Source: a virus. Taken from it: a DNA stretch of 64,000 nt. The notes under the pieces are model-generated. The model searched no databases, was not told where the DNA came from, and was given only the letters and a program-made list of their open reading frames with translations. Below, piece by piece: positions 15,819 through 49,562 of the stretch; the first letter of the stretch is position 1, and each line of letters opens with the position of its first letter. Where the stretch lies: positions 1 through 64,000 of the IMG/VR virus record IMGVR_UViG_3300029319_008653. One strand, written 5' to 3'. Made by a program: the position numbers and the translations under genes.

Positions 15819-16304
15819 ATGGACAAGTTTACTCAGTTTGCAAATAAAGTTTTAATGGAGTATGGTACGGTGATAGGATCTTCAGCAGAAGAGATGGAAC
15901 CTACTCAAAAACACGGCGATATAGAAATGCAATTAACCAAAATGCTCGGTGGTAGGGACAGAAGATCCTATATCAGAGCAGGAAAATGCGTAATGACAGG
16001 TCAGGATGCAGGTCCTTTTAGAGATGAACTTTCAGAAAGAGAATATATGATTTCTGGATTGGGTCAAGAAGCTCAAGATATGATATTCAAAGATGAAGAT
16101 GATGAAAAGGCAAAGCATATTGAAGATAATGAAATTAATGCCACTGATTTAAAAACTTTAGAAACAGTTAAAGCATTAGCGGGAGGAAAAGCTAAAGGAG
16201 GCTTGAATCCGTTTGATAGACCTGAAAGAGATATTCAAAAAGCATATGGTCAAATGCTTAGTAAGGTAGCAAAACAAGTTAAGGACGTAGCGAAGAAAAT
16301 ATAA
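15819..16304 (+). CDS. Hypothetical late protein with capsid-targeting-like leader
   Basis: 161 residues. The leader MDKFTQFANKVLMEYG fits the repeated pattern M-x-x-F...L-x-E seen on many late proteins here and in T4 internal head proteins. The rest is charged, with EMQLTKMLGGRDRRSYIRAGK in the middle and a basic C-terminal helix. First gene of a four-gene late unit ending with the ligase/NMNAT fusion. Function unknown. Confidence 0.75.
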   Translation: MDKFTQFANKVLMEYGTVIGSSAEEMEPTQKHGDIEMQLTKMLGGRDRRSYIRAGKCVMTGQDAGPFRDELSEREYMISGLGQEAQDMIFKDEDDEKAKHIEDNEINATDLKTLETVKALAGGKAKGGLNPFDRPERDIQKAYGQMLSKVAKQVKDVAKKI

Positions 16305-16627
16305 TGAGAAACTTTTTAAATACTTTATATAATACAGGACTAATCAAAGAACAGGATGCAGCGCCTGCTCCAGCTCCAGAAACTGAAGTTGATGTTAATG
16401 TATCTGAAACTGAACCCGCTCCTACTGAAGAAGTTGTACCTTTATCTCCAGAAAGCGAAGTTATGCTTGTACGTATGCTAAAGAAAGCATTAGTAATGAA
16501 GATAGATCCGGATGATGTTACTCAAATTAGTAACTTTTCAGATATTAATGAGAAAAATGCTAAGCAAGTTTTACAACAAATAATTAATATCATGAAAAAC
16601 TATTCACTAGACATTGATATTGATTAA
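16304..16627 (+). CDS. Hypothetical late protein with leader and Pro/Glu-rich linker
   Basis: 107 residues. Leader MRNFLNTLYNTGLIKEQD, then a Pro/Ala/Glu-rich linker (about 20-46), then a compact helical region (about 48-107) including LVRMLKKALVMKI. The stop of the previous gene overlaps its ATG. The leader again ends in a hydrophobic-x-Glu, as prohead protease sites do. No family recognised. Confidence 0.7.
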   Translation: MRNFLNTLYNTGLIKEQDAAPAPAPETEVDVNVSETEPAPTEEVVPLSPESEVMLVRMLKKALVMKIDPDDVTQISNFSDINEKNAKQVLQQIINIMKNYSLDIDID

Positions 16628-16628
16628 A

Positions 16629-17657
16629 ATGAGTTGGAAACCACTAGATGAAATTTATTTAAAGGAAACTGCTGGAATTAGCGTTCCTGTATTACCGCGG
16701 CAGCAGATGTTTAAGGAAGCAACTGCTAAAGAGGTAATAGCTTTAATAAATGATTTAGAAGATCAAGGATTACTTAAAGATTCTGACGAATTAGATACAG
16801 TTATGCAGTATCTAAGTAAAAAACCTTTTCAAAAAAAGCTTTCTGAGTATCTATCTAAGCAAAATTTAACTGCAAATACTATATCTGAAGGTAATATTCA
16901 AGATATAATAATGGATACTTTAGCAAAAAATAATGATATAGCCCAGTACTCTAAATATATTGAAAAACCTGCAAAATTAAATGCTCTAGGTACTAGAGGT
17001 CAGTTAATTGATAAAGCTAGTGAAATAACTAAATTAAAACCTGAAACTATTAGAGATTTAATTAACTTAATAGGTACTGAAAGTGGTAGAGGAGTAGGTA
17101 GAGCCGAAATAGCACTTGCTACTTTATTCGATGATGTTAAAATGAGCGCTTCAAAGGGTGATTTAGATTGGAATGGTCAGTATCTAGAGGTAAAAGCTAC
17201 TAGTGCACGTTTAGGAAAGAGGGACAGAGCATCTACTAACTTTAATAATACTGCTTTAGGTAAATTAGCACAAGAAAATGGTTTAACTGATAAAAGAATA
17301 GATGTTTTAGTAGCAAATCTAGCTAATATAAAAGAAATAGATGTGCAACGACTTAAAAGTTCATTAAAAGAGTTCGTATCTAATGAATATCCTCATAATA
17401 ATAAAGATTTAATTGAAGATGTAAATTTAAAAGATCCTGCAGCTGTTAGAAAAGCAGTTACTAAAATTTATTTTAATAATTATGCTGCGGGTGAAGGTGT
17501 AGATTCGTTTATTTTTGTAAATACAAGTAATAATAGATTTTTTAGTAGATTTACTCTTTTTACTAAAGATCAAATTAATGATTTAATTGATCAAAATATT
17601 ATAAAGAGCGGTGTTATAACCACTTTAGATTTAGATCCATCACTCGGTACAATATAA
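16629..17657 (+). CDS. PD-(D/E)XK nuclease-like protein with leader
   Basis: The start is placed at 16629 (MSWKPLDEIYLKETAG), just after the preceding stop; the frame is 342 residues. A nuclease core is suggested by GRAEIALATLF, then GDLDWNGQYLEVKATSARLG (about 180-199), where Asp and E-V-K match the PD-(D/E)XK pattern. The leader ends IYLKETAG, again hydrophobic-x-x-Glu before small residues. It sits between leader-bearing genes and overlaps the fusion gene by one base. A packaged nuclease is possible; activity is inferred. Confidence 0.7.
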   Translation: MSWKPLDEIYLKETAGISVPVLPRQQMFKEATAKEVIALINDLEDQGLLKDSDELDTVMQYLSKKPFQKKLSEYLSKQNLTANTISEGNIQDIIMDTLAKNNDIAQYSKYIEKPAKLNALGTRGQLIDKASEITKLKPETIRDLINLIGTESGRGVGRAEIALATLFDDVKMSASKGDLDWNGQYLEVKATSARLGKRDRASTNFNNTALGKLAQENGLTDKRIDVLVANLANIKEIDVQRLKSSLKEFVSNEYPHNNKDLIEDVNLKDPAAVRKAVTKIYFNNYAAGEGVDSFIFVNTSNNRFFSRFTLFTKDQINDLIDQNIIKSGVITTLDLDPSLGTI

Positions 17658-19468
17658 TGAAAACTTTTAAAAATTATATATTAAACGAAGGAGGAGCAGC
17701 CGGTCATATGGCTCATCCTTTCGATTTACCCCGTATACAAAAAGGTACAGATCTAAAAAGGTTCTTTTTAAATAGCGTACGTTCAATCGAGAAAAATCCT
17801 CCTTCAGTTAAGATAGATGGTGTTAATGCTAGTTTTAGATTAATTGATAAGGATGGTAAGAGAGAGTTTGCTTTAGATAGAGGTTCAATGAAACCTTTAG
17901 ACCTAGAAGGTATTACTTTAGATAAACTAACAGATAGATTTGGCGAAGGTCATGGTATGGTTAATGCAGGTAATAAGCTGTTAACCATTATGAATAATGC
18001 ATTAAATGATATTGAACCTGAACTTAAAAAGTTAGGTATGTGGGATAACTCTAATAGATTTTTCAATACTGAGTTTGTAGAAGGCCAATCCAATGTACTA
18101 CAATATGATAATGATTTTTTAGCTATTCACGGTATAAATGAATTTTATCAAGCAACACCTAAAAGAAGAGCTAGTAAAGAAATAGATTATAACACTAAAG
18201 CATTGCAAACCTTAATAAGCAAGTTAAACAAGTATGCAGAACCGTATAATTTTAAAGTATATGGTAGTATACCGGCAAAACTAACTAAAAAACCTAATTT
18301 TGAACACGTATTAGGTAAAAATTTTACTATAAATTTAAAAAATGAACGTATTTCTAAGCCATTAGTACAATTTTTAATGGATGCTGATAATCCTTTCAAT
18401 ACAATGATTGAATTAGAAGATGGTAAACGTGTTGGAGCGTTAAGTAAATTTGTATACTTACAGATCCTAAATGGTGTACCAGTAGATACCTTTGTAAAAG
18501 ATGAAGAAGACTACCAGAAAGCTATAGATGGTGCTGTTTTTTATCATGCAACAAGAGTTTTAGGTGATGAACTCCTTACAACATTAACTTCAGATATGGG
18601 AGATGTAAAATATCATGAAGGTATTGTAATTAGAGACCCACAATTTGGTGATAAACCTGTAAAAGTAACTGGAGAGTTTATTGTTGGTGGTATGGACTCT
18701 AAATTTAGAAGTGAAAATAATGAAATGCTTCCTTATTATTCTAATTACATAAAAAATCCTCCAGTTAGGGGCGATTTTTATGGAAAAGGTAGATTTAGAA
18801 CTACACCCAACCCCATAGGAGAAACTTTTGATGAGTTATATTCTTCTGTAATGCTGTTTGAACTAGACCAAGTTATGGCAGAAGATATAATTGTTATATA
18901 TCCAGGAAGATTTCATCCATTCCATAAAGGTCATGCATCGGTTTATAATAAATTATCTGAAAAGTTTCCTAACGCCGATATATACATAACTACATCTAAT
19001 AAAACTGATGGAGATAAGTCTCCGTTTACATTTGATGAGAAAAAAACTATGATGGTCAGCGCAGGTGTTGATCCAGATAAGGTTGTTGAAGTAAAAAATC
19101 CTTATAATCCAGTAGAGATACTTCAAAGATATGATAGTGACTCTTCTAAAGTTATTTTTGCTATATCTGCTAAGGATATGGAAGGGCCAGGTGCTAGATT
19201 CAAGTTTGGTACTAAAAAGGACGGCAGTCCTTCCTATTTTCAACCTTTTGTAAGTGTTAGAGAGTCAGAATTTATGGGTAAGCACGGATATATTGATACT
19301 TTACCTACTATAGATTTTAGAATTAACGATAATCCGGTAAGAAGTGCTTCTGAAGTAAGAAATCTATACAAGAATGCAGATCCAGAAACAAGAAAAAAGA
19401 TAATTCATGGTTTATACGGTTCAGTTGATAGAGATATAATGAATATCTTTAATGCGAAGTTTAATTAA
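17657..19468 (+). CDS. Fusion: nucleotidyl-lysine (ligase-like) domain plus NMNAT-like nucleotidyltransferase
   Basis: 603 residues in two parts. The N-terminal part has VKIDG (51-55), the Lys-x-Asp-Gly motif of DNA/RNA ligases, then LDRGSMKP, FFNTEFVEGQ, YHEGIVIRDP and VKVTGEFI, consistent with further ligase motifs. The C-terminal part (about 413-603) has YPGRFHPFHKGH and DNPVRSASEVR, the HxGH and ISSTxxR elements of NMNAT-type enzymes. The leader MKTFKNYILNEGG closely resembles T4 internal-protein leaders. It may act in nucleic-acid repair or NAD metabolism. Last gene of its late unit. Confidence 0.82.
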   Translation: MKTFKNYILNEGGAAGHMAHPFDLPRIQKGTDLKRFFLNSVRSIEKNPPSVKIDGVNASFRLIDKDGKREFALDRGSMKPLDLEGITLDKLTDRFGEGHGMVNAGNKLLTIMNNALNDIEPELKKLGMWDNSNRFFNTEFVEGQSNVLQYDNDFLAIHGINEFYQATPKRRASKEIDYNTKALQTLISKLNKYAEPYNFKVYGSIPAKLTKKPNFEHVLGKNFTINLKNERISKPLVQFLMDADNPFNTMIELEDGKRVGALSKFVYLQILNGVPVDTFVKDEEDYQKAIDGAVFYHATRVLGDELLTTLTSDMGDVKYHEGIVIRDPQFGDKPVKVTGEFIVGGMDSKFRSENNEMLPYYSNYIKNPPVRGDFYGKGRFRTTPNPIGETFDELYSSVMLFELDQVMAEDIIVIYPGRFHPFHKGHASVYNKLSEKFPNADIYITTSNKTDGDKSPFTFDEKKTMMVSAGVDPDKVVEVKNPYNPVEILQRYDSDSSKVIFAISAKDMEGPGARFKFGTKKDGSPSYFQPFVSVRESEFMGKHGYIDTLPTIDFRINDNPVRSASEVRNLYKNADPETRKKIIHGLYGSVDRDIMNIFNAKFN

Positions 19469-20283
19469 CCATGAGGACCAGGTTGAGTCATCTTATCTTC
19501 GATAAAATCGTCTAATTCTTTACCTTTTAGACCTTTTTTCTTACCTTCATTATGATATTTTATCATTAATTCCTCATTTACATCATCTTCGTCGTCTTCT
19601 GTACCGCCAAATCCAGTATTCATAGCTGTTTGTGTACCTTTATCGGTGTCTAGCTCGACTGATTGCTGATTTCTAGGCTCTTCTTGATCAGAATCTTTTT
19701 CTTCCTCATCACTATAGCATGGCTCTTTAGTAGGGAAGTTATCTTCATAATCTAGATAATGATAAACTGATGATAGATAGTCAGCTGCTTTAGTTATTTT
19801 ACTAGCTACCCATCCTTCTAAGTAATCACTTTCAGGATGATTACCTATATGGTGGAATAATTTAGCGGCATACTCATTAGCTTTAAGCAATTCTAATCTA
19901 GCCATATCTATTTCGCCATCATAAATTTGCCTACCTTCTCTATCATCTCCTTCGTCTGCGCATCCACAATCTTCTTTTTCTCCAGCTTGTATATAAACAG
20001 CTTCATCTTCGATAGGAGCTTCAGTTTTTCTTTTAAAAGGTGTAGTGCTTCCAATAGAAGTTATTCTAATCATAGATGGTGTATTAGGACCAAGACCTAA
20101 GTCATCTTCTTCTTTGGTTTCCGGCTCTTCTTTTATTTTAGGCATCTCTTCCTTAGCCTTCTGTAGCTTCATAAAAGAAGATATTCTATCATCTTCTTCG
20201 CCTTCAAAACCTTTAAGACTTCTTACCTTTTCATTCATACTTACGTATGCTTCAAAAATTAGATCGCTTTCTTTATTAGCCAT
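19465..20283 (-). CDS. Conserved-looking acidic late protein
   Basis: 272 residues, very acidic, with long Asp/Glu runs around 55-70 and 190-235. A more ordered segment, MARLELLKANEYAAKLF...WVASKITKAADYLSSVYHYLD (about 125-180), recalls a protein I associate with marine T4-like phages of unknown function. The N-terminus (SDLIFEAYVSMNE) is leader-like. It has a late box 5 nt from its ATG. Convergent with the fusion gene, overlapping by 4 bp. Confidence 0.75.
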   Translation of the reverse strand: MANKESDLIFEAYVSMNEKVRSLKGFEGEEDDRISSFMKLQKAKEEMPKIKEEPETKEEDDLGLGPNTPSMIRITSIGSTTPFKRKTEAPIEDEAVYIQAGEKEDCGCADEGDDREGRQIYDGEIDMARLELLKANEYAAKLFHHIGNHPESDYLEGWVASKITKAADYLSSVYHYLDYEDNFPTKEPCYSDEEEKDSDQEEPRNQQSVELDTDKGTQTAMNTGFGGTEDDEDDVNEELMIKYHNEGKKKGLKGKELDDFIEDKMTQPGPHG

Positions 20284-20288
20284 ATTAT

Positions 20289-20295
20289 TATTTAT
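20289..20295 (-). promoter_or_regulatory. Late promoter box ATAAATA (minus)
   Basis: Minus-strand TATAAATA, then ATAAT and the ATG at 20283. It is back to back with the plus-strand box at 20304. Confidence 0.75.
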
Positions 20296-20303
20296 AAAAT
20301 TTA

Positions 20304-20310
20304 ATAAATA
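20304..20310 (+). promoter_or_regulatory. Late promoter box ATAAATA (plus)
   Basis: ATAAATA, then ATTAC and the ATG at 20316. Confidence 0.7.
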
Positions 20311-20315
20311 ATTAC

Positions 20316-20636
20316 ATGAAGTTCAATGATGAGGTACTATCCCTACTGGAATCTTTTGAAGAGGATGCAGAATATAGAGGGCGTAAAGTTAAGCTTAACA
20401 AGCCTATGCGAGGCGACGTTAAGAAGTTTAAAGTATACGTTAAAGACCCCAAGACTGGTAATATTAAAAAGGTTAATTTTGGTCATGGTGGTACTTCAGC
20501 TAAGCGCAGAGGTGAAAAGACTATGAAGATACGTAAAAGTAATCCACAAAGACGTAAATCTTTTAGAGCTAGGCATAACTGCGATAACCCCGGTCCTAAA
20601 ACTAAAGCCAGATATTGGTCATGCAGAAAATGGTAA
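20316..20636 (+). CDS. Small very basic late protein with leader and Cys pair
   Basis: 106 residues. Leader MKFNDEVLSLLESFEED is followed by a strongly basic body (GRKVKLNKPMRG; RKSNPQRRKSFRARHNCD) and a C-terminus ARYWSCRKW. This body resembles a small conserved protein of marine T4-like phages. The charge suggests DNA binding, and leader plus late box suggest a head-internal protein. First of four similar genes in a row. Confidence 0.78.
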   Translation: MKFNDEVLSLLESFEEDAEYRGRKVKLNKPMRGDVKKFKVYVKDPKTGNIKKVNFGHGGTSAKRRGEKTMKIRKSNPQRRKSFRARHNCDNPGPKTKARYWSCRKW

Positions 20637-20637
20637 T

Positions 20638-21390
20638 ATGAAAAAATTTAAAACATACTTTGAAGAAACAGAAATAGAAAGTCTTGAAGCATTAATTGCT
20701 AATCCTGACCCAAGTCGAGTAAAAATGTACGGCGGGGGCACAGAATATGTTGATATGCTTAAGAAAAAATTAGAAAAAGCTAAAAAATCTCATTCTAAAG
20801 AAGATGAAGAAGTTGAAGAATTATCAGAAGATAAATTTTTTAGTAGATTTACTGACTTTGGTATAAGCTATAAAGGCTATCATTTAGAAGTAGAGCAAGA
20901 TGAAGAACCTAATGAAAGATATTTTTATTATGGTACAATATATAACCCGGAGGGTAAGAGTATGAAATTACCTCCAAGAGATATAGGTGCAGGTAGTGAA
21001 GATTTTGTAACTACTATGGGTAGTATAAAAGCTAAAGAATTTAAAATGTATATTGATAAAATCTCTGCTGACAATGAAGATGCAGAGAAAAAAAGTAAGT
21101 TCAAAATTTATAAGGGTAAGGATTATAAAGTAAAAGTAGAGAGAGGTAAAAAGTTTACTAAAAATGGTATATATATGAAAGTATATTATCAAAATCCTAG
21201 CCTATCTAAAGCTAGACAAAAACAAATAGCCAATCAAATACATAGAGCTGTATCCGATGAAGAACATCCAGAAGATGCACAAGATCGTTGTAAAAGAAAA
21301 GCAGATCAAGTTTATGGTAAGAAAACTTCTGCTTATAAATCAGGTGCTATAGTAAGATGCCGTCAAGGTAAAATTTGGAAGAAAAAATGA
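20638..21390 (+). CDS. Basic late protein with leader and DUF5872-like C-terminus
   Basis: 250 residues. Leader MKKFKTYFEETEIES, an acidic linker (EDEEVEELSED, about 55-65), a beta-rich middle (about 70-145) and a basic end with DRCKRKADQVYGKKTSAYKS (about 219-238) closing in GKIWKKK. The final segment recalls DUF5872-type proteins of T4-like phages. It overlaps the next small gene by 4 bp (ATGA). Confidence 0.75.
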   Translation: MKKFKTYFEETEIESLEALIANPDPSRVKMYGGGTEYVDMLKKKLEKAKKSHSKEDEEVEELSEDKFFSRFTDFGISYKGYHLEVEQDEEPNERYFYYGTIYNPEGKSMKLPPRDIGAGSEDFVTTMGSIKAKEFKMYIDKISADNEDAEKKSKFKIYKGKDYKVKVERGKKFTKNGIYMKVYYQNPSLSKARQKQIANQIHRAVSDEEHPEDAQDRCKRKADQVYGKKTSAYKSGAIVRCRQGKIWKKK

Positions 21391-21539
21391 GAGAATTTGA
21401 TACAGTATTGGAAGGCCTTTGGGCTAATATTAACAAAGCTAGAGCTTCTGGTAAAAAGAGTAAAGCTTGGAAAAATGATCCTAAGTATAGAAAGAAGCTA
21501 AAGAAAGCAGTTAAAAAATTAGAAAAAGGTTCACGATGA
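21387..21539 (+). CDS. Very small basic protein (50 aa) with leader
   Basis: Starts MREFDTVLEGLWANI and then is almost entirely Lys/Arg with Ala, Ser and Leu, ending KKAVKKLEKGSR. ATGA overlaps join it to both neighbours, and its first four residues are the same as those of the next gene. VLEG would suit a prohead protease. Likely a head-internal or DNA-condensing peptide; inferred from context. Confidence 0.65.
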   Translation: MREFDTVLEGLWANINKARASGKKSKAWKNDPKYRKKLKKAVKKLEKGSR

Positions 21540-21826
21540 GAGAGTTTGATAAATTAGCTGAACAGTATCTTACTGAAATAAATGAAGCTAGTGATTCTCT
21601 TCGACAATGGTTTAAAAGAGGGGGCACTGATCCTAAGACCGGTAAAAAATTTAAAGGTTGGATAAATTGCAAGACGGGCGGGCCCTGTGGCCGTAAGTCT
21701 AGAAAATCCGGTGGTAGTTACCCTGCATGCAGACCTACAAAAGCAGAATGCAATAAAATAAAAGGCAAGATGTACCAGAAAAAGAGCTCTAAAAGAGTTA
21801 ACTGGAAAAAGAAAAAGAAGAAATAA
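21536..21826 (+). CDS. DUF5872-like basic Cys-containing late protein
   Basis: 96 residues. Leader MREFDKLAEQYLTEINEASD contains INEAS, a good prohead protease-like site. The body has SLRQWFKRGG, CKTGGPCGRKSRKSGG (about 47-62) and PACRPTKAECNK, a Cys pattern known in DUF5872 proteins of T4-like marine phages, and ends in Lys. It converges with the next minus-strand gene without a visible terminator. Confidence 0.8.
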   Translation: MREFDKLAEQYLTEINEASDSLRQWFKRGGTDPKTGKKFKGWINCKTGGPCGRKSRKSGGSYPACRPTKAECNKIKGKMYQKKSSKRVNWKKKKKK

Positions 21827-22115: not shown

Positions 22116-22763
22116 ATGCCTGATTTTTTTATAGATGCATGTCCTAACTGTGCAGTTTGCAATTCTGATATACGTGTAGTACGTAATAGACACCATACAC
22201 CATCAGGATTTGTTAATCAAAAAGGTGATGTACCATATCAAGATGTACCCTTTAAGACTGAAATGGAATTTTTAAGAAATACATGCAGAATGCCAGGTAA
22301 AGATTTAAATAAACTTGATATATGTGCATCTGAATTCAGATATGCTTCTATGTTATCATTTGGAGCAAATGTAGGCAATACAACTTTTCATACTTATAGT
22401 AAGAGTACAGATGGATCTATTTGTATTACTGTATGCGCCAATACAGTAAATAATGAAATAGGAACTGGAGACAAATACTATGCATTTAGTAGAGATGATG
22501 GTAAGACTTTTGATATAGCTTCAGTTAATACAAATACTAAAAATTTCGGTTCACTTAGAGCAGGTAGATATAGTATTTGTGTTAGAGACCAAACAGTTAC
22601 TCGAGCTGGTTGTTCGCGATCTACAGTAGCGGGTACTATGGTAACAGTAGGAAACGGCGGGGGAGGCTCCGGTGCTTCCAATGCTCAAGGCGCTGGTGCT
22701 ACTTTTTCTGGGCGACCAGGTTATGATGATACAGAGCGAACATACGGTTTGCCATCTAACTAA
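22116..22763 (+). CDS. Cys-rich hypothetical late protein with Gly-rich tail
   Basis: 215 residues. CPNCAVCNSD (9-18) gives C-x2-C-x2-C, and further Cys occur near 62, 76, 110, 115 and elsewhere. The middle is beta-rich and the end is a Gly/Ser/Ala-rich tail with GNGGGGSG. A virion surface role is plausible from the late promoter, but no homology is claimed. Its stop overlaps the next start. Confidence 0.7.
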   Translation: MPDFFIDACPNCAVCNSDIRVVRNRHHTPSGFVNQKGDVPYQDVPFKTEMEFLRNTCRMPGKDLNKLDICASEFRYASMLSFGANVGNTTFHTYSKSTDGSICITVCANTVNNEIGTGDKYYAFSRDDGKTFDIASVNTNTKNFGSLRAGRYSICVRDQTVTRAGCSRSTVAGTMVTVGNGGGGSGASNAQGAGATFSGRPGYDDTERTYGLPSN

Positions 22764-23320
22764 TGAATATAGATTTTTTAAGAAAACATTATAAAGATGA
22801 ACCTTTTCAGCATGGATTAGGATTTATGATACTAAAAATGAAAAGTAACTCTCAGTTAAATTTTCATACTAATTTAGTTTCAGGGCCTTCAAAATCTCCC
22901 CATAGTCATACTGCAAATTTTAACAGTAAGTGTTTATTCGGTGAATTAAAAAATATTATATATGATTATAAAGAAGTCACAGCCAGTGATTGGGCCTTAG
23001 TAAGTGTAACATGCAGAGAAGGAGATAAACCTGAGGTAATTAATAATAATATAAAACCGGTAATTATTTCAGAACAAATACAAAGAAAAGGAGATACAAT
23101 ATCTCACTTTTATAAAAATATACATGATTTTAAACTACTATCTAAACATGCGTGTACAAGAATGACTACTACTAATACACCGCAGCATTCTCAGAAACCA
23201 CTAGCTATAAAAGATAAAAATATAGAATGGATTTGTCCTTATGAAAATAGAGGTACGCCTGAAGAAAATTGGGATATTATCGATCAAATTTTAAGAGATC
23301 AAGATAATGTTTTATCATAA
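22763..23320 (+). CDS. Cupin-like hypothetical protein
   Basis: 185 residues. FHTNLVSGPSKSPHSHTANFNSKCLFGELKN (within 33-65) has His spacing and a following Gly typical of a first cupin metal motif, and the later part contains another His-rich stretch (TISHFYKNIHDF). Metal dependence and substrate are unknown. It overlaps the nucleotidyltransferase-like gene downstream by 14 bp, suggesting joint action. Confidence 0.55.
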   Translation: MNIDFLRKHYKDEPFQHGLGFMILKMKSNSQLNFHTNLVSGPSKSPHSHTANFNSKCLFGELKNIIYDYKEVTASDWALVSVTCREGDKPEVINNNIKPVIISEQIQRKGDTISHFYKNIHDFKLLSKHACTRMTTTNTPQHSQKPLAIKDKNIEWICPYENRGTPEENWDIIDQILRDQDNVLS

Positions 23321-23843
23321 AAGAGGAGATATAATTAGCACAACTCCATGCTGCCAGCCTTCGAAAGATGTTTTTAATAACTGGCTAAAAGAATGGAGCA
23401 AGCTTCCATATTACAATAAATATGATTTATATTTAACCGGTGCTTTTTGTCAAAATTATTTTTTAAATAAAAATATAGATACTTTTGATATAGATTTATT
23501 TCTTACGGGTAAACCAAAAACAAAAACTGATTATTATATTTTAAAAAATTTATTAGAAAAAGGTATTGAGATTGGGTATAAAAATAAACTTTTAATAGAT
23601 ATATATTGGAGAAAAGAACTTCCAACATTTAAAAAATTCTGTACTACTAGAATAGTAACCTATACTGAAATAATTTATAAATCAGATACCAGTGCAAGTA
23701 CGTATCATATACCAGGTTGTATAAAAGAATTAATACCAGGATTATATGTAGTAGAAGATGATCCGTTACCTAATTATAAAAAATTTATTTCTAAAAATTA
23801 TGAACTAGCGTGTAAAAGGGTAGATGTATCTCTACTTGATTAA
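23307..23843 (+). CDS. Pol-beta-type nucleotidyltransferase-like protein
   Basis: 178 residues. YLTGAFCQNYFL followed by DTFDIDLFLTG (about 58-68) and, further on, LLIDIYW (about 96-102) match the G-x-x...D-x-D...D layout of minimal nucleotidyltransferases. The second helix is Lys rich. No toxin/antitoxin partner is visible; the neighbour is cupin-like. Substrate unknown. Confidence 0.5.
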   Translation: MFYHKRGDIISTTPCCQPSKDVFNNWLKEWSKLPYYNKYDLYLTGAFCQNYFLNKNIDTFDIDLFLTGKPKTKTDYYILKNLLEKGIEIGYKNKLLIDIYWRKELPTFKKFCTTRIVTYTEIIYKSDTSASTYHIPGCIKELIPGLYVVEDDPLPNYKKFISKNYELACKRVDVSLLD

Positions 23844-23856
23844 TAAAAGCTATTTT

Positions 23857-23863
23857 CTAAATA
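23857..23863 (+). promoter_or_regulatory. Possible degenerate late box (CTAAATA)
   Basis: CTAAATA, 6 nt, then the ATG at 23870. The first base differs from the consensus used by other late genes. Confidence 0.35.
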
Positions 23864-23869
23864 TTCTTA

Positions 23870-24733
23870 ATGGATAATAATAATTCAATTTTAAGAGATA
23901 TCTATGAAAACTTTATTCTTGAAATGGAATATAACCACCCGGATGGAGAAAGACATTATGGTTATATAACTAGAAATCCTGAGTATTTAGAAGGAGATAT
24001 TCAGCCAGACGAAGATGACAATTATGTAGTTTATGATCTACTTACTAAAAAATGGATACGAAGCAGCACTACTAGTAGTGCATTCTTTACTGTAACCTGC
24101 CCAGATATAAACGGAGAAGACGGTAAACCTTTAAAGAATCCTTTCGCTCTAGCAGATATTTCAGATAAAGAAATAATAGATAATGCTAATACTTCCTTGC
24201 TTTTAAAAATTAAAGCTAGACAAACAGCAATTAATGAAGCTTTAAAAGAAATTAAAGATATAATTACGATAAATGAAGAGGTTAAATTATATTATTATTC
24301 ATTATTTTCAGCATATGGCTTTAGAGAGTATAGTAATAAAGATGCAAATCTTTTAGCTATCCTAGCTATTGCCGAGCAACCTTATATTAAAGTATTACAA
24401 AATAAGCCTACTAAGGAAGAACTTAAAATTGCACAGACTAATTGGCTAAAGGTTATAGATGAAAAAATTGCTTTTTCACTATCGGAATTAGATAATGAAA
24501 AAAAGCAGCTCGACCCTAATAATGAAGAATACGAGTATGAAGTTGAAGAAATAGAAACTATAAAAGGACTAATAAAAGATCTCCACGATGAGTATGAAGC
24601 TAAATTAAAAGACACGGTAGATTATAAGGATGTATTACAAGTATGGCCTCCTCTCTTATTACCACGACCTGCTTATATTGAAAAGTGGATAAAATTAGAG
24701 CATGCTTTTCCATATGAAAATAAATCTGAGTAA
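23870..24733 (+). CDS. Hypothetical acidic protein with coiled-coil C-terminal half
   Basis: 287 residues. The N-terminus (ILRDIYENFILEMEYNHPDGE) is leader-like, followed by a short beta region including YVVYDLLTKKWIR (about 52-64), and long Glu/Lys/Leu helices from about 105 to 250. DKEIIDNANTSLLLKIKARQ resembles chaperone or tail-assembly helices, but this is only an impression. It precedes the first glycan cluster. Confidence 0.65.
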   Translation: MDNNNSILRDIYENFILEMEYNHPDGERHYGYITRNPEYLEGDIQPDEDDNYVVYDLLTKKWIRSSTTSSAFFTVTCPDINGEDGKPLKNPFALADISDKEIIDNANTSLLLKIKARQTAINEALKEIKDIITINEEVKLYYYSLFSAYGFREYSNKDANLLAILAIAEQPYIKVLQNKPTKEELKIAQTNWLKVIDEKIAFSLSELDNEKKQLDPNNEEYEYEVEEIETIKGLIKDLHDEYEAKLKDTVDYKDVLQVWPPLLLPRPAYIEKWIKLEHAFPYENKSE

Positions 24734-25592
24734 AAACGTTACATATGATAAAATTCTCATAGGCAAACTTTATCAAGAAAAATATTTTTTTAATAATGAA
24801 TATCCACAAGATGATAAAGTATATGATTTAATATCGTCATATTATAGTATAGATAAAAAGTTTATAGCTATTGGTTATGGTTCTGCTGATGTTCTAAATA
24901 GAATTATAGGTAATTTATCTTTAGATGATTTATTTGTTATAGAGCCTACATTTCATGGAGCTGAAAGATTTTGCCGGTATCATAATGTTATGTATATACC
25001 GTGGAAGTATAAAAATTTTAATCAAATAGATATAGAAGATATTCCAAGCAACTGTAATGTGTATATAGCTAATCCTAATGGTAATAATGGGCACGCTTTT
25101 AGCTTAGATAGTTTAAAAAAATTATTAAAGAGAAGCAAATTGCTTATTATTGACGAGGCTTATATAGATTATGGAGGTGAAAGTATTATAAAAGAGAGAG
25201 CTTCTAATTTAATAGTATTAAGAACTTTTAGTAAAAGTTTAGGATTACCAGATATACGATGCGGTTTTGCTGTTGCGTCGGAAAATAATATTAATTTAAT
25301 TAGAAGTACTGAATTGCCATATTGCTCTACCGGTAGAACTGAAAAAATATTAAAAAAATATATAAATCAAATACCTGATACTGTTGAAAGAATGATAGCT
25401 GCTAGAAATTTTGTTGAAAGCAAATTTGAATGTATAAAATCTAAAGGAAATTATGTTCTACTAAATAAAAAATACGAATCTTTATTTAAAGATAAAGCTA
25501 TAATATCATATAGAGATAAGTTTTTAAGAATAGCATTAACTAATAAGGAGTTTTTTGAAAAGATATGGGAAGAAAATCTAAAGAAACATTAA
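24714..25592 (+). CDS. Fold-type I PLP aminotransferase, HisC-like
   Basis: The start at 24714 (MKINLSKN) is preferred over 24702. 292 residues, somewhat shorter than HisC. GSADVLNR (about 55), NPNGNNGH (about 115), LLIIDEAYIDYG (about 140) and FSKSLGLPDIRCGF, whose Lys is the PLP anchor, are all present. Substrate could be an amino-sugar precursor or a phosphorylated amino alcohol; a true histidine role is unlikely given the glycan neighbourhood. It opens the cluster and overlaps the preceding gene. Confidence 0.85.
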   Translation: MKINLSKNVTYDKILIGKLYQEKYFFNNEYPQDDKVYDLISSYYSIDKKFIAIGYGSADVLNRIIGNLSLDDLFVIEPTFHGAERFCRYHNVMYIPWKYKNFNQIDIEDIPSNCNVYIANPNGNNGHAFSLDSLKKLLKRSKLLIIDEAYIDYGGESIIKERASNLIVLRTFSKSLGLPDIRCGFAVASENNINLIRSTELPYCSTGRTEKILKKYINQIPDTVERMIAARNFVESKFECIKSKGNYVLLNKKYESLFKDKAIISYRDKFLRIALTNKEFFEKIWEENLKKH

Positions 25593-25777
25593 AAAAAGAA
25601 TTTAAAAATGCTAGAGTTAAGTATATGCGTATAATGAACGATTTTGCGCGCTGCCATCCTAACAGTAAAAGATATTCAGAAATACAAGAAAAGGTAATGA
25701 TAGCAGAAGAGAATTGCGTCTTATTAAATCGTAAAATACATAACTGGAAGCATGGTGATTGTGATAAATTAATTTAA
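25565..25777 (+). CDS. Small hypothetical helical protein (70 aa)
   Basis: Basic, helical and with no recognised domain; MGRKSKETLKKEFKNARVKY at the start. It overlaps the aminotransferase by 28 bp and the radical SAM gene by one base, so it is probably translated with them. Confidence 0.6.
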   Translation: MGRKSKETLKKEFKNARVKYMRIMNDFARCHPNSKRYSEIQEKVMIAEENCVLLNRKIHNWKHGDCDKLI

Positions 25778-26607
25778 TGAATATTGAAACATTTAGAGAC
25801 CTACAAGCTACTAATGTTAATTTAAATAATAAATTTTCTATGCTTCGAATGGTAGAAATTAATCCTACAGAGTTATGTAATAGAAAATGTTCTTTCTGTC
25901 CCCGATCAAATAGACGAGTTTATCCTAATAGAAATAAACATATATCAGTAAAAACTATTGAGCATTTATGTAAAGGTTTAAAAGATATCAATTTTAATAA
26001 TAGAATAGGTTTTGTAGGATTTGGAGAGCCTCTTTTATGTAAAACTTTAATACCGTGTATAAAAAAAGTAAAAGAAATAATACCTGATATAGAATGGCTA
26101 GAAATAAACACTAACGGTGATAAATTAACTGCTGAAAAAATTAAAGAATTGTATGAAGCAGGATTAACAAATATCACAATTAGCATGTATGATAGTGATA
26201 AAACGGATTATTTTAAAGAATTAAAAGGCAGTATACCCATAGATCTTATTTTTAGACATCATTATAATCCTGAAACTAATTATAATTTGAACATAGTGAA
26301 TAGAAAGGAAATATTACAAAAGAAAAATAAAATTCATTCTAAAGATAGCTGCTTTTTACCTTTTTATAAATTAATGCTTGACTGGAATGGAGATGTACTA
26401 CTATGTAATAATGATTGGTCAAGGCAAAATAAATTTGGTAACGTAAATTATGATACCATTAAAAATATTTGGTTTGGTGAAGCTTTAAATAATTTTCGTA
26501 AAAAATTACTTTCAACAAGAAAAGCATGCGGACCTTGTAGGTATTGCTCTATAGATGGAAAGCTTAGAGGAATTGATTCAGTAGAATTATTTCTTAATTA
26601 CTATTAA
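25777..26607 (+). CDS. Radical SAM protein with SPASM-like C-terminus
   Basis: 276 residues. CNRKCSFC (30-37) is the CX3CX2C iron-sulfur motif. GFGEP (about 76-80) is the GGE-like SAM-binding element, and a C-terminal Cys-rich region LLCNNDW...ACGPCRYC (about 207-262) resembles the auxiliary-cluster site of SPASM proteins. Such enzymes act on peptides or sugars; the neighbouring glycosyltransferases favour a sugar or glycan step, but this is inference. No small precursor peptide gene was found. Confidence 0.85.
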   Translation: MNIETFRDLQATNVNLNNKFSMLRMVEINPTELCNRKCSFCPRSNRRVYPNRNKHISVKTIEHLCKGLKDINFNNRIGFVGFGEPLLCKTLIPCIKKVKEIIPDIEWLEINTNGDKLTAEKIKELYEAGLTNITISMYDSDKTDYFKELKGSIPIDLIFRHHYNPETNYNLNIVNRKEILQKKNKIHSKDSCFLPFYKLMLDWNGDVLLCNNDWSRQNKFGNVNYDTIKNIWFGEALNNFRKKLLSTRKACGPCRYCSIDGKLRGIDSVELFLNYY

Positions 26608-27285
26608 ATGAGTACGCAAGTTAATGTATTTATAGGTCTAGATGAGCCACATAAAATATCATATGATACATGTAAGTATAGTATTTTATCTAAAAATAAA
26701 AAATATAAACTTAATATTAAGCCTATAAATTATAATACTGTAACTGATTATAAAAAAAAGAAGTCTAAAGACGAATCTACACAGTTTTCTTTTGCAAGAT
26801 TTTGGACACCTTATGAGAGCAATTTTAAAGGTATTAGTATATTTGTTGATGGCGATTTTTTATTTTTAGATTCTATAGATAGTTTAATTGACTTATATGA
26901 TCCTAAAAAAGCAGTTATGGTATGTAAGCATGACTATATTCCTACTAATACTATTAAAATGGATGGTAAAAAACAGACTATATATCCTAGAAAAAATTGG
27001 AGTAGTTTAATAATTTTTAATAATGAGCATCCAAAAAATAAAACTCTAGAGCCATGGTTGCTTAACGACTTAACAGGAGCTTATTTACATAGATTTATGT
27101 GGCTAGTAGATAGAGATATAGGAAGCTTACCTCTTGAATGGAATTGGCTAGTGGGGTATTATGAAGAATTAAAGGAATTTAAGCCTAAAGCATTACATTT
27201 TACTGAAGGTGGTCCGTGGTTAGAAGAATATAAAAATTGTCCTTACAATAAAATATGGAGATCAGTACAGAATGAAATACATTGA
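26608..27285 (+). CDS. Glycosyltransferase-like protein (GT-A, DxD)
   Basis: 225 residues. SFARFWTPYESNFKGISIFVDGDFLFLDSI (within 50-82) contains the DGD metal motif typical of GT8-like enzymes, and NWSSLIIFNNEHP (about 132) plus WNWLVGYYEE fit members seen in marine phage and bacterial clusters. Donor and acceptor are unknown. It overlaps the next radical SAM gene by 14 bp. Confidence 0.8.
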   Translation: MSTQVNVFIGLDEPHKISYDTCKYSILSKNKKYKLNIKPINYNTVTDYKKKKSKDESTQFSFARFWTPYESNFKGISIFVDGDFLFLDSIDSLIDLYDPKKAVMVCKHDYIPTNTIKMDGKKQTIYPRKNWSSLIIFNNEHPKNKTLEPWLLNDLTGAYLHRFMWLVDRDIGSLPLEWNWLVGYYEELKEFKPKALHFTEGGPWLEEYKNCPYNKIWRSVQNEIH

Positions 27286-36977: not shown

Positions 36978-37394
36978 GTGATTTCGTTTAAAATTTTTTA
37001 TGAAAAAAATAAACCTCTAGGTTTAATAGAAACTATAACTTTTGAGGAATTGGGGCCCATTGAAGCTAAAGTAGATAGCGGTAATGGTGCTTATAATGTG
37101 CTGCATGGTCTTAATATTATTGAAGATGATGGCCATGTAACTTTCGATACTGTTAATAATAAAACTCTTAAGAAAAAATTAGTAGAACATATTGATATTA
37201 ATATAGGTTCTGGAAATATAGAAAAAAGACCTGTAGTAAAATTTGATATCGAAATCGGAGATAAAAAATATCCAGGAACAAAGTTCTCTATTGGAGATAG
37301 AGAAGCTAACGAATATAAGATCTTAGTAGGTAAAGGTTTTATTGAAAAGCTTGGAGGTCTTATTGACGTTAACGCAGAAAATAATCTTGATTAA
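36978..37394 (+). CDS. Retropepsin-like/putative ATP-dependent zinc protease family protein
   Basis: 138 residues. GPIEAKVDSGNGAYNVLHG (within 26-45) aligns with the D-[ST]-G active-site loop of the family usually annotated as ATP-dependent zinc protease, in which Asp-Ser/Thr-Gly is typical of retropepsins. RPVVKFDIEIGD and YKILVGKGFIEKLGGLIDV complete the fold. The N-terminus (ISFKIFYEKN) is leader-like. Possibly a maturation protease; role unproven. Confidence 0.75.
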   Translation: MISFKIFYEKNKPLGLIETITFEELGPIEAKVDSGNGAYNVLHGLNIIEDDGHVTFDTVNNKTLKKKLVEHIDINIGSGNIEKRPVVKFDIEIGDKKYPGTKFSIGDREANEYKILVGKGFIEKLGGLIDVNAENNLD

Positions 37395-39040: not shown

Positions 39041-41278
39041 ATGAGTAGTTTTTTAAAAAAAATCAATGAGTATAAAGCACCTGTAATGGCTCCGAAATCA
39101 GAAGATGATAGTGCTGCCATGGCAGGTATGAAGACAGGATTTGATAAACCAAAACAAGCTGTTGCTTCAGCAGGTAGAAAAGTTACCGGTGTAATGGGTA
39201 GAGTAGCCTCGGGGTTAGGAAAAGTTAAAAAAGCTGCTGATATGATTAAAACTGTAGGTACAGGTGAATGGAGTATAGATAATTTATTAGACGGAATGAT
39301 TAAAAAAGCTAGAGATCAGCAATCAGGAAAAATAACTTTATTCGGTCAACCGGGTCACAACTTAGTAATGTTAGGTAAAGGTTATATTGAATCTATAAAA
39401 TCTATGCAAGGTAAAGAGCCTGATGAAATAGTAGATGATACAGAAGCAGTTGATGTAGAAAAATCTGTAGAAAAAGGTGATGTTGAAACTAAAAAAGAAG
39501 GTGATGTAGAGACAAAAAAAGAAGGTGATGTAGAGACTAAAAAAGAAAGTTTTCTTGATAAAGTTGATAATCTTCTTTTTGAAGTAACAAAAGCTGAAGG
39601 TGATAAAATAAGAGCGAAAGCTGAAGAATTAGGTATACCTATAAAAACTAAATCAGGTAAACCTATAGGACCTGCAAGATTACAAGGTAGAATAGATAGA
39701 AAATTAGCAGAATTAAAGGCAGATGAAAAACAAAGAAAATTAGATCTTACAGATGATGACAAAGCGGTGAATAAAGCAACTGATGCTAAAGAATCAGAAA
39801 AAGAAACTAAAGAAGAAACTAAAGAAGATACTAAAGAAAAAACCAAAGAAGATGCTAAAGAAGAAACCAAAGAAGATACTAAGAAAAGTACTGGTGATAA
39901 AACGTTTAAACCAATTGGTGATACGGTAAGCGCAAAAGCTAGATTAACACCGTTAGTTGCAGATGTACTAGGTGTTAAAGATGAAGAGTTGGTTAGATAT
40001 ACAAATTATATATCAAAAAATTTCGGTGCAGTATTAACAGCAATTCAAAAAGCTTATGGACCAGATTCTGAATATGCTAAAAAAGAAGACAGTAAGCCTT
40101 TAGATTTTACATTTGAATTGAAGGGATTTGGGAGAATTTCAGATAAGGAGCAAGAAGATTTAAAGAAAAAACAAGAAACTAAAGAGGTAAAAGAATCAAC
40201 TATTTTAAAATTAATAGAAGAAAGCGTTGCAACTGATATAGCTGATAAAGCTGGAAGAGACGGTGCAGAAAAATTAGTTAAAGGTATGGAAGCTATATAC
40301 CCAGGTAAACAAATTACTTTTAAAACACCTGAACCGGATCCTAAGCCTGAACCTGAACCAGAAGATGAACCTGAAGTTGAACAAGATATTCTAACTACTG
40401 CTACTAAATTTTCACTAGTTAACGGAAAGGATTATGGAGAAGAGAGACAATATACATTAAAGCCTCAAGAAGATAAAGTTGGTGAATATCTTACAGCAAA
40501 GGGTATAAAGTTTATTACATATGTACAAAAACCAAAACCAAGAGCACTTACCGGCGGTAAAGGTGGTCAAATAGGTTCAAATTTTGAATTATCTAAATCC
40601 TCTCAAGGTAGATTAATTGCCTATGATGATGAAAATCAAGTAATATCTCAGTTAAATGTTGATGCTCCATATGAGTGGAATTCAACTGAAAAGGCATATT
40701 CATTATCTCGAAATAATACAGTTAAAATAGGACCTGACCCTGCTAAAGGCGAAATGGGATTTGCTACTGATGCTGAAGAAATATATTTTTCTGACCCCAA
40801 TAGAAAATATATAACGTTAGTTAAAGATCGAAAACAAGCGGATGAATCACTAAAAAATGCTAATTACCCCGGCAATAAAATATTACTTGGAGGAGACTTA
40901 AGAGCAGAGTTTGATCAAAAACTATTTAAAAAATATGCTATAGTTAGAACTGATGAAGAAGGTAATTTTATAGTTAATGTAAGGCAGCCTTTACCTTTAG
41001 CTCCTGCTGATGTTTTAGAAATGCAAAAACGTAATAGAGCTTTAGCTGGTCCAAGTGCTGGTAAAACTGCTACTGGCGGTACAGGAAAAACTGAAACTAC
41101 TACAACGACTACAACGACGACTACACCAGGAGTTAAAAAAGATGTTAAGCAAGGTCAAGGTGTTCTAATTGATCCAACTACGGGTAAACCAATAACAGGT
41201 GAGAGAGTACCTAAAGATCAGAATGAAGAAGAAAAAGTAGTAAGTAAATATTTGGAAAAAATAGAAGAATATTTATAA
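39041..41278 (+). CDS. Large hypothetical late protein with low-complexity repeats
   Basis: 745 residues. The leader-like start MSSFLKKINEYKAPV is followed by a Gly/Lys region, three copies of GDVETKKE (about residues 146-169), a KEETKEDTKE-type array (about 253-284), a Pro/Glu hinge (PEPDPKPEPEPEDEPEVE) and a Thr-rich run (about 686-697). Two more ordered blocks lie between. Probably a structural or head-core protein; family not recognised. Confidence 0.75.
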   Translation: MSSFLKKINEYKAPVMAPKSEDDSAAMAGMKTGFDKPKQAVASAGRKVTGVMGRVASGLGKVKKAADMIKTVGTGEWSIDNLLDGMIKKARDQQSGKITLFGQPGHNLVMLGKGYIESIKSMQGKEPDEIVDDTEAVDVEKSVEKGDVETKKEGDVETKKEGDVETKKESFLDKVDNLLFEVTKAEGDKIRAKAEELGIPIKTKSGKPIGPARLQGRIDRKLAELKADEKQRKLDLTDDDKAVNKATDAKESEKETKEETKEDTKEKTKEDAKEETKEDTKKSTGDKTFKPIGDTVSAKARLTPLVADVLGVKDEELVRYTNYISKNFGAVLTAIQKAYGPDSEYAKKEDSKPLDFTFELKGFGRISDKEQEDLKKKQETKEVKESTILKLIEESVATDIADKAGRDGAEKLVKGMEAIYPGKQITFKTPEPDPKPEPEPEDEPEVEQDILTTATKFSLVNGKDYGEERQYTLKPQEDKVGEYLTAKGIKFITYVQKPKPRALTGGKGGQIGSNFELSKSSQGRLIAYDDENQVISQLNVDAPYEWNSTEKAYSLSRNNTVKIGPDPAKGEMGFATDAEEIYFSDPNRKYITLVKDRKQADESLKNANYPGNKILLGGDLRAEFDQKLFKKYAIVRTDEEGNFIVNVRQPLPLAPADVLEMQKRNRALAGPSAGKTATGGTGKTETTTTTTTTTTPGVKKDVKQGQGVLIDPTTGKPITGERVPKDQNEEEKVVSKYLEKIEEYL
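39476..39547 (+). repeat. Three tandem 24-bp repeats inside the coding region
   Basis: Copies at 39476-39499, 39500-39523 and 39524-39547, each encoding GDVETKKE, differ by a few silent bases. Confidence 0.9.
39798..39890 (+). repeat. Imperfect K-E-E-T-K-E-D-T coding repeats
   Basis: A run of degenerate 12-15 bp units encoding alternating Lys/Glu/Thr/Asp in the same gene. It also produces a long false antisense frame. Confidence 0.75.
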
Positions 41279-47974: not shown

Positions 47975-48423
47975 TGACCTCTACTGGAATGGCTAATAAT
48001 CAAAGACCTAAATCAGACTCTAATACATCAGCGAAGATTATTGCTTTTTACAGAGGAAGGGTACTATTATTAAAAAATAAAGATAAAACGTATGAACTGC
48101 CTGGTGGTCATATAAAAATTGGTGAACCTACTATAGTTGGTGCTAAAAGAGAGTTCAAAGAAGAAACGGGACTCGATGTTACGAGGTTAAAATCATTAAT
48201 AAATACGCCTACAAGAAAGATTTATACAGGATTTTTAGCTATTAATCGTGTTACTATTAGTAAGGAGCATATCGGCTTTATATTTGTACCATTAAATAAA
48301 TTAAAGAAGTATAATTTAAATATAAAGGCTAAGAGCGATCTTAGACTATTTTTAAATAAACGAGAAAAACTTAAAAATAATGATGAACTTTCAGACATTT
48401 TACCAGATTCTACAGGAAGCTGA
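47974..48423 (+). CDS. NUDIX hydrolase
   Basis: 149 residues. GGHIKIGEPTIVGAKREFKEETGL (within 46-70) is the NUDIX box with REFKEE; YELPGGH precedes it. It cleaves a nucleoside diphosphate-linked substrate. Leaderless late start; heads a unit with two basic leader-bearing proteins and SOD. Substrate unknown. Confidence 0.88.
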   Translation: MTSTGMANNQRPKSDSNTSAKIIAFYRGRVLLLKNKDKTYELPGGHIKIGEPTIVGAKREFKEETGLDVTRLKSLINTPTRKIYTGFLAINRVTISKEHIGFIFVPLNKLKKYNLNIKAKSDLRLFLNKREKLKNNDELSDILPDSTGS

Positions 48424-48742
48424 TCCAAAAAAAGGTACGGGAAAAAAACCTAAAGGGTCGGGTAGGAGATTATACACAGATGAAAATCCTAAAGATACTG
48501 TTAGTGTAAAGTTTAGTACAGTTTCAGATATAAGAGATACTTTAAGTAAAACTTCTTTTAAGTCTAAATCTCATGCTAGGCAGTCACAAATTATAAATTT
48601 AATTCATCAAAGAGTAAGAGCGGCAAAAGGTAGAGTAAAAGACCCGGTTAAGAAAAAGAGACTTAATGCAGCGTATAAATATATTAGTGGTCGTAAAGAG
48701 GCTAGTAAGCGAAAAACCCAGAGAATGAAGAAAAAGAAATGA
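48383..48742 (+). CDS. Small basic late protein with leader
   Basis: 119 residues (MNFQTFYQILQEADPKKG). ILQE-AD is an excellent match to T4 gp21-type cleavage sites. The body has KGSGRRLYTDENPKDTVSVKF and HARQSQIINLIHQRVRAAKGR, then a Lys/Arg tail. Recalls a conserved marine T4-like phage protein. Probably DNA-binding and head-internal. It overlaps NUDIX by 41 bp. Confidence 0.78.
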   Translation: MNFQTFYQILQEADPKKGTGKKPKGSGRRLYTDENPKDTVSVKFSTVSDIRDTLSKTSFKSKSHARQSQIINLIHQRVRAAKGRVKDPVKKKRLNAAYKYISGRKEASKRKTQRMKKKK

Positions 48743-48942
48743 TAACATTTAGTACATATTTTTTAGAGAACTTTAAGGATAAAAAAGTTAAAGGTAAGAG
48801 CAGACCCGGTAGAGTAAAAAGAGCAGGAGCAAGCTGTAAAGGGTCTGTAAGTGAGCTAAGACGTAAAGCTAAAAAATATGGAGGCGAAAAAGGCAAGATG
48901 TATCATTGGTGCGCTAATATGAAAGGCGGTAAAAAGAAATGA
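48739..48942 (+). CDS. Very small basic late protein with leader and Cys
   Basis: 67 residues. Leader MITFSTYFLENFKDKK, then GKSRPGRVKRAGASCKGSV, AKKYGGEKGKMYHWCANMKGGKKK. The conserved GASCKGS and YHWCANMK recall a phage family of unknown function. ATGA overlaps join it to both neighbours. Confidence 0.75.
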   Translation: MITFSTYFLENFKDKKVKGKSRPGRVKRAGASCKGSVSELRRKAKKYGGEKGKMYHWCANMKGGKKK

Positions 48943-49562
48943 AGTATGATCAAATAGCAGATTTAATTTTAGAAAAAGTTGGTGGATATAAACCTGTTAA
49001 GTTACCCTATGCATTGGATGCTTTAGAGCCTGTTATAGATGAAAAAATAATGAATTTTCATTATAATAAGCATTATAAAGGTTATATTAAAAAACTTAAT
49101 GATGCACTATCTAATACGGAAAAAGACTTAGTAGATGTAGTAAAATCAGCTGCAAATAAAAAAGATGCAATTCGTAATAATGCAGGTGGAGCGTATAATC
49201 ACCAAATATTCTGGTTCATGATGAAGCCAGGCGGGAGTAAATTTGAAGGTGAAATAAAAGAGAAAATAGAGAAGCAATTCGGTAGTTTTGATAGCTTTAA
49301 AAAAGATTTTGTTGAGCAGGCTAAGGGAGTTTTTGGCTCTGGTTGGTTATGGTTAGTTCAGAAAGGAAATAAACTTAAATTTATTCCTACACATAATCAA
49401 GACAATCCATTAATGTTTGATAAGGATGTAAAAATACTTCTTGGTGTTGATGTTTGGGAGCATTCTTATTATATTCAATATGGTCCAGATAGAGAAAAAT
49501 ATCTTAAGAACTTTTTAAAGATAGTTGATTGGTCTTACTGTAATCAACAATTAACTCAATAA
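48939..49562 (+). CDS. sodA/B: Fe/Mn superoxide dismutase with N-terminal leader
   Basis: 207 residues. The SOD domain starts near residue 20 (VKLPYALDALEP). Metal ligands are seen in FHYNKHY (His41), AYNHQIFW, and DVWEHSYY (Asp and His). GVFGSGWLWLV is the family core. Residues 1-18, MKYDQIADLILEKVGG, are absent from ordinary SODs and resemble the leaders of its basic late neighbours. It detoxifies superoxide. Virion location is an inference. Converges with the next gene over 7 bp. Confidence 0.92.
   Translation: MKYDQIADLILEKVGGYKPVKLPYALDALEPVIDEKIMNFHYNKHYKGYIKKLNDALSNTEKDLVDVVKSAANKKDAIRNNAGGAYNHQIFWFMMKPGGSKFEGEIKEKIEKQFGSFDSFKKDFVEQAKGVFGSGWLWLVQKGNKLKFIPTHNQDNPLMFDKDVKILLGVDVWEHSYYIQYGPDREKYLKNFLKIVDWSYCNQQLTQ

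Follow-up and report, generated by a model that had tools for sequence, protein, structure and literature searches.

A short N-terminal leader that recurs on otherwise unrelated proteins of the virus contig IMGVR_UViG_3300029319_008653 is very probably a T4-type capsid-targeting sequence (CTS), which would load its cargo into the phage head for delivery. The window considered here comprises bases 1-64,000 of this 93,039-base contig, the remainder of which was also analysed. An earlier note on this DNA had listed 13 such leaders and read them as a modular head-packaging tag. All 13 N-termini were found as starts of open reading frames (ORFs) at the listed positions, and the reading as a T4-type tag is supported by a gp21-type gene in the contig, by retention of the leader in relatives and by the finding of tagged proteins in virions of relatives. 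For this phage itself, we infer packaging, cleavage and injection from these lines of evidence.

The ORFs come from a simple script whose start calls may err, and the starts at 17657 and 48383 were set by hand; the start at 36978 is a GTG, that at 48383 the second of two ATGs, and that at 16629 an ATG within a longer TTG ORF. The strict form of the leader, M-x-x-F-x-x-[FY], begins 7 of the 134 genes of the contig (15819, 17657, 20638, 36978 and 48739, as well as 65569 and 66188 outside the window); shuffling of each N-terminus predicts 0.68 (p ≤ 0.0002). The loose form requires an aromatic residue at position 3-4, a hydrophobic residue three positions later and [LIVMF]-x-E by residue 20, so that the leader end, which matches the gp21 motif L/I-x-E, is tested within it; 13 of the 134 proteins have this form compared with 2.3 after shuffling (no more than 11 in any of 5000 shuffles). 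Of 414 internal methionines, 5 (1.2%) begin such a sequence, versus 9.7% of real starts. The leader is real and non-random: a chance origin is ruled out by the shuffles and the internal-methionine rate, together with the orthologue leaders and the virion association described below. The formula first proposed, M-x-x-F-x-x-(Y/F) followed by a hydrophobic-x-E end, is borne out by the excess of both forms; as a description it is loose, and several listed members fit it only with a shift, the weakest being 39041 (Lys at position 7), 16629 (Trp3), and 20316 and 48939 (aromatic residue at position 3). A de novo expectation-maximisation motif search on the N-termini overfitted and was discarded.

Judged by the sequences of relatives, the leader behaves as a module: its pattern and the L-x-E junction are retained, and leader and body evolve separately, which bears out the profile check proposed in the earlier note. 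A 603-residue ligase-like/NMNAT-like fusion starts with MKTFKNYILNE/ (17657..17689, + strand; a slash marks the predicted cut), and its relatives have MKTFKQYYNTILNE/, MKTFNELYNLINE/, MKSFKQFIINE/, MKKFSEYFKLIAE/ or MITFKQFLLE/ ahead of the same GGAAGHMAHPFD body. Where the fusion is split into two genes (G008, G010), each half bears a separate leader, a natural analogue, at most, of tagging a foreign protein; in L021 and L022 the second gene of the split fusion has its own (MKTFKQYISE/ and MKFDLLVEEIL..), and the relative in L023 has none. Fusion relatives at L014 2052, L015 5986 and L018 566 have the reversed domain order, with the NMNAT-like domain first. For the basic 96-residue protein with leader MREFDKLAEQYLTEINE/ (21536..21586, +), mean identity within the family is 0.87 for the body and 0.44 for the leader, and 22 of 22 distinct short leaders end in [LVF]-x-E directly ahead of the body, including MTQKELLE and MSMSQKEVLE, which have nothing else in common with the other leaders. 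In the family of the basic 106-residue protein with leader MKFNDEVLSLLE/ (20316..20351, +), the body is about 80-93% identical and the entire N-terminal region is swapped for unrelated sequence, and in G002 (MRSFKTFFEQLKAKSHEDEDAQDRCKRKA) hardly anything separates a leader from the C-terminal body, of about 40 residues, of the basic 250-residue protein with leader MKKFKTYFEE/ (20638..20667, +). Solved superoxide dismutases (SODs) align with the Fe/Mn SOD behind leader MKYDQIADLILE/ (48939..48974, +) only from query residues 12-21 onward, extra residues preceding the normal SOD start; in other phages the junction reads LVLE/SLGGYKP, LLLE/ELNGYKP or LLIE/GVGYYKP. The loose pattern is found in 30 of 41 hand-listed orthologue N-termini, and most of the rest have an aromatic residue and L-x-E with shifted spacing. 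In the AlphaFold model of the fusion, residues 1-10 have a mean pLDDT of 22 beside a confident body, which would fit a detachable tail.

The machinery that such a tag would need is encoded in the contig, which contains the head gene module of a T4-like myovirus (gp23/gp21/gp20 clade). The gp21-like protease gene for which the earlier note had proposed to look is present at contig 83329-83997 (PF03420, E=1e-33) and has gp22-, gp23- and gp20-like neighbours: the adjoining gp22-like scaffold at 82310-83161 (PF25623, E=4e-4, below cut-off), gp23 at 80704-82224 (PF07068, E=1e-87) and gp20 at 86412-88181 (PF07230, E=1e-98). The expected cut site of gp23, CLNE/AGPD near residue 60, and the scaffold N-terminus, MKNISDILRE/A, both fit the gp21 motif. 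This gp23 is less than 60% identical to that of every matched GenBank phage (best about 34% among the matches listed), and a megablast of 15001-39000 against GenBank phages gave no match. PF03420 was present in every tested contig of at least 129 kb carrying SOD, fusion, 21536 or 20316 bodies; it was often absent from shorter fragments with these bodies, and from two contigs of 110-115 kb.

The predicted presence of tagged proteins in virions came true for relatives only, in the proteome of S-CREM2 and in the tag on virion NMNAT-like enzymes of three other phages. S-CREM2 is a T4-like cyanophage (48% GC) that encodes PF03420; its proteome was taken from Table 3 of PMC10665884, which describes CsCl-purified virions, and the 52 detected proteins were translated. 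Among them, the SAM hydrolase begins MKDFDSFLEE, the kinase MKRFDAFLTE, the cytidylyltransferase (NMNAT-like) MKNFSSFLTE, and the hypothetical proteins ORF13 and ORF136 MKDLHSFLTE and MQTFSMFFSE; the annotated Cas9-type nuclease has RFASFMAE/A within its first 26 residues. A strict IPIII-like 10-mer occurs in five S-CREM2 ORFs (0.06 expected), and all five were detected in virions, against 0 of 167 undetected ORFs with this 10-mer (Fisher p=6.5e-4); the tag is found on 7 of 28 non-structural virion proteins versus 2 of 167 undetected ORFs (p=1.8e-5). Capsid targeting, internal proteins and leaders go unmentioned in a text search of that paper. NMNAT-like enzymes have also been reported in virions of S-SM1 (PMC3037559), S-SCSM1 (PMC9602691) and S-SZBM1 (PMC9146016), and these proteins start with MKKFSAFLNE/A, MKSFLQFLKE/A and MRFRQFIIE/A, respectively. 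Earlier authors, who also weighed co-purification, judged virion carriage of NMNAT to be possible or likely; the tag on these enzymes argues for true packaging. The loose form is likewise in excess in T4 (15 vs 5.0), KVP40 (18 vs 5.6), HTVC008M (10 vs 3.0) and P-SSM2 (11 vs 5.0), and in the relatives G001, G002, G004, G010 and G034; the same test gave no excess in SPO1 and phiKZ.

How diverse is the cargo? The bodies had been called unrelated, which stands for the SOD (PF02777, E=4e-35; PF00081, E=1e-24), the NMNAT-like domain and the basic proteins; the ligase is called from motifs and weak fold matches, and the nuclease from its motif. The fusion at 17657 has a CTP_transf/NMNAT-like domain (PF01467, E=2e-8), and a fold search with its model returned mostly NMNAT/PPAT-type structures (best E at least 3e-3), RNA ligases ranking much lower. 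Tagged bodies are basic, with a median isoelectric point (pI) of 9.0 versus 6.1 for other proteins (charge test, p=0.007). Behind leader MSWKPLDEIYLKE/ (16629..16667, +) lies a 342-residue putative PD-(D/E)XK-like protein, which may be a nuclease to judge from its GDL..ExK motif; a Pfam search assigned no family, Foldseek with its model found nothing significant (weak likeness to lambda exonuclease, Rai1/DXO and PvuII), and a search for relatives returned one locus. In the slot 16629-17657, also seen in L006, L008 and L011, the same MSW[KR] leader is followed by either of two nuclease-like bodies that differ widely (18-22% identity), and both proteins have the MSW[KR]xLxxxY and GDL..G..[IL]E[VL]K motifs (alignment A1). 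The NMNAT-like and SOD cargo suggests NAD repair or supply and superoxide protection at entry, roles that are guesses from family names.

The other tagged genes of the window all lie on the + strand. A 161-residue protein has leader MDKFTQFANKVLME/ (15819..15860), with ATAAATA 5 nt before its ATG, and its pattern is retained in L013, L006, L011 and L012 (MDKYTQFANKILFE, MDNYTQLANKILNE, MDKFTVKASGILNE and MDKFTRTANHILSE). An acidic 107-residue protein follows with MRNFLNTLYNTGLIKE/ (16304..16351; orthologues MTKFLKRIYDLDLINE and MKFIEQIDKLLAE), and a basic 50-residue protein has MREFDTVLE/ (21387..21413; MNKFDTILE/GLWANIN in L012). The PF05618-like protein, a putative ATP-dependent zinc protease, begins MISFKIFYE/ (36978..37004), and its relatives MITFKQFFE/, MKSFKQFFE/ and MINFKTFYE/; the weak member, a 745-residue low-complexity protein, has MSSFLKKINE/ (39041..39070), with MSDFLKLVQE/AT and MSNFLKLVQE/VT in orthologues. 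Two basic proteins precede the SOD gene, one of 119 residues with MNFQTFYQILQE/AD (48383..48418; MKFTTLVEKILLE/ADPKKGTGKKPKGSGRR in a G034 relative) and one of 67 residues with MITFSTYFLE/ (48739..48768; MIKFNTFFE/NYADGKVKGKS in G002). Outside the window, leaders occur at 65569 (MQTFEEFYNQKMLE), at 66188 (MEHFDNYCNEQLKMLE), where the lysozyme-like body resembles a phage endolysin (7q47, E=1e-11), and at 66705 on the - strand (MDFNSTVKKILE). Two long gene runs, at 22116-36745 and 51525-61803, look by eye sugar-, radical-SAM- and glycosyl-transfer-like, of the surface polysaccharide type.

Further leader classes were observed. On the - strand, a 272-residue acidic protein (gene 19465-20283) starts with MANKESDLIFE/AY (20251..20283), and its orthologues with MANKDNDLIFE/AY and MAKVESGLIFE/AY. 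This second class, x-D-x-L-[LI]-x-E/A[YF], is common to unrelated proteins; besides the window gene, it is found in G037 at 8368, 8588, 8838, 10193, 54202 and 123009 (6 vs 0.35 expected). An N-terminus of the form MK.LL.NWRK[FY][IL]..E on unrelated proteins, including HAD-like phosphatases (L017 850; L023 995 and 1981), is possibly a third tag type; gp21 was found in the L023 contig and not in the L017 contig. The SODs of other viral contigs, L024-L103, have a longer N-terminal extension ending in LLITE/MKKIGIEKLPY, perhaps another cleaved leader, and two contigs of this set, G016 and G021, encode gp21.

Could the N-termini resemble one another for other reasons? In 15 genes the start codon is preceded, at a distance of exactly 5 nt, by a T4-late-promoter-like [N]ATAAATA, and such an element stands within 60 nt in 28 of 134; the sites include 15819, 20316, 20283(-), 22116, 36772, 36978 and 47974 in the window, and 65569, 83997(-) and 88181(-) in the rest of the contig. 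The distance from a strict TATAAATA to the start is 13-52 nt in T4 and 22-51 nt in P-SSM2; in this contig as in G034, G037 and G033, and partly in HTVC008M, it is mostly 5-8 nt, which suggests leaderless late mRNAs in a marine T4-like clade. Taken alone, G000 shows a weak association between tag and late promoter (p=0.28); seven genomes pooled show it with p=0.004. Promoter or translation constraints on the DNA near the start codon might be invoked, as TATAAATA-like elements stand 5 nt ahead of several tagged genes and TTT encodes the aromatic anchor of 12 of the 13 leaders. However, many tagged genes lie within operons and lack such an element, the element also stands before late genes that have no leader, and the same protein pattern recurs in the 48% GC genome of S-CREM2; we rejected this very improbable reading. 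Descent from a common ancestor with that N-terminus is less credible still: the tagged genes are clustered (15819-21826, 48383-49562 and 65569-66941), but their bodies belong to unrelated families (SOD, CTP_transf, PF05618, lysozyme-like), and the same body is found with wholly different leaders or none, on which grounds paralogy was rejected.

Two alternatives concern the destination of the tagged proteins. The leader could target the prohead core only, the bodies serving head assembly (core, DNA condensation) and being mostly degraded or retained instead of injected. Many bodies do resemble core or DNA-binding proteins in their small size and high basicity (pI about 11), and the scaffold itself begins with a leader-like N-terminus, yet SOD, NMNAT-like enzyme, kinase and SAM hydrolase have no obvious role in assembly, and we consider this explanation unlikely. 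Markedly less plausible is that the leader sends proteins to some other assembly or compartment of the infected cell, such as the membrane or a replication body, and that virion detection is due to co-purification. Leader cleavage is predicted, and the S-CREM2 authors themselves raised co-purification; on the other hand, the scissile [LIVF]xE junction is retained where the leader is swapped, the tag tracks virion presence in S-CREM2, and the leader corresponds to the T4 CTS in both position and sequence. Several points nevertheless weigh against a capsid-targeting role. Some listed members fit poorly (39041, 16629, 16304), L-x-E is a short motif, and the count of 22 junctions ignores kinship among the relatives, which are phylogenetically non-independent. 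The virion evidence comes from relatives of this uncultured phage, cleavage after Glu is predicted from the junction motif, and abundant cell proteins might, as the S-CREM2 authors caution, co-purify with virions (PMC10665884). Finally, the gp21 phages G012, G016, G033 and BUCT-ZZ01 show no loose-form excess, indicating that the tag is common yet non-universal there, or that other leader forms are in use.

If the leader is a CTS, the aromatic/hydrophobic face of its 9-17 residues (positions about 4 and 7) would dock on the gp22-type core as proheads form late in infection. The gp21-type protease would then cut after the Glu of [L/I/V/F]-x-E, so that the mature body comes free in the head. Leader peptide and fragments of the scaffold would exit, and DNA would be packaged around the cargo, which would enter the next cell along with the DNA. 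This cargo would comprise small basic DNA-binding-like proteins, SOD, the ligase-like/NMNAT-like enzyme, the probable nuclease, the PF05618-like protein and, from outside the window, the lysozyme-like protein; its plausible uses are immediate protection, counter-defence and metabolic takeover, and both the docking and the use of each cargo are our extrapolation. In T4 IPIII, residues 4 and 7 target the protein, residues 8 and 10 are required for cutting, and the gp21 motif is L/I-x-E (PMC9026906). The leaders agree with these key positions, the closest being MKTFKQYISE of the relative L021. More tentatively, marine T4-like phages might use a modular address code, in which several lineage-specific leader classes (M-x-x-F-x-x-F/Y, MTQKELLE/MSMSQKEVLE and x-D-x-L-L/I-x-E-A-Y), each read by its own gp22 core, load a fast-changing enzyme payload (NMNAT-ligase, SOD, nuclease, kinase, SAM hydrolase), a kit for a first strike against stress and the defences of the host. 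A CTS of this kind would provide a sequence rule to predict the head-carried proteins of T4-like ocean phages, and a mechanism for enzymes that are repeatedly seen in cyanophage virions and have been suspected to be contaminants. With SOD, NMNAT-ligase, nuclease and lysozyme-like protein as natural cargo, metabolic and anti-defence enzymes would act ahead of all phage gene expression, and many natural tags would become available for protein-delivery engineering.

Finally, we would place these leaders among known systems. CTSs on T-even internal proteins are known, including the idea of diverse proteins with only the CTS in common (PMC3012670), and the basic idea comes from T4; what appears to be unreported is the enzyme cargo, the variation among leaders and a connection of the tag with virion enzymes. 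Our literature search, mostly without subscription papers, found no report of CTS-tagged enzymes in marine phages or of a link between tag and virion enzymes, which leaves priority unproven. In phage P1, the first 30 residues of DarB suffice to direct the protein and a fused reporter into the capsid (PMC9024508); this is likewise an N-terminal capsid signal, in a different phage and with a different sequence. The T4-like cyanophage virion enzymes (NMNAT-like/cytidylyltransferase T4-GC190, SAM hydrolase, APH/ChoK kinase) have the same leader form and share the NMNAT-like cargo, whereas the fusion described here adds a ligase-like domain; how they enter the head is left unexplained in the literature examined. 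Closest are the T4 internal proteins IPI-III (MKTYQEFIAE/A, cut by gp21), which have the N-terminal site, the aromatic or hydrophobic residues at about 4 and 7, the hydrophobic-x-Glu end and the diverse, often basic bodies in common with our leaders, in a phage with gp21, gp22 and gp23. In contrast to T4, the phage here is an uncultured marine one with a distant gp23, its leaders span 9-17 residues with replaced sequences, and its cargo has recognisable enzymes (SOD, ligase/NMNAT-like, PF05618-like, lysozyme-like). Our best reading is that the range of cargo and of leader length is much wider than in the known coliphage set.

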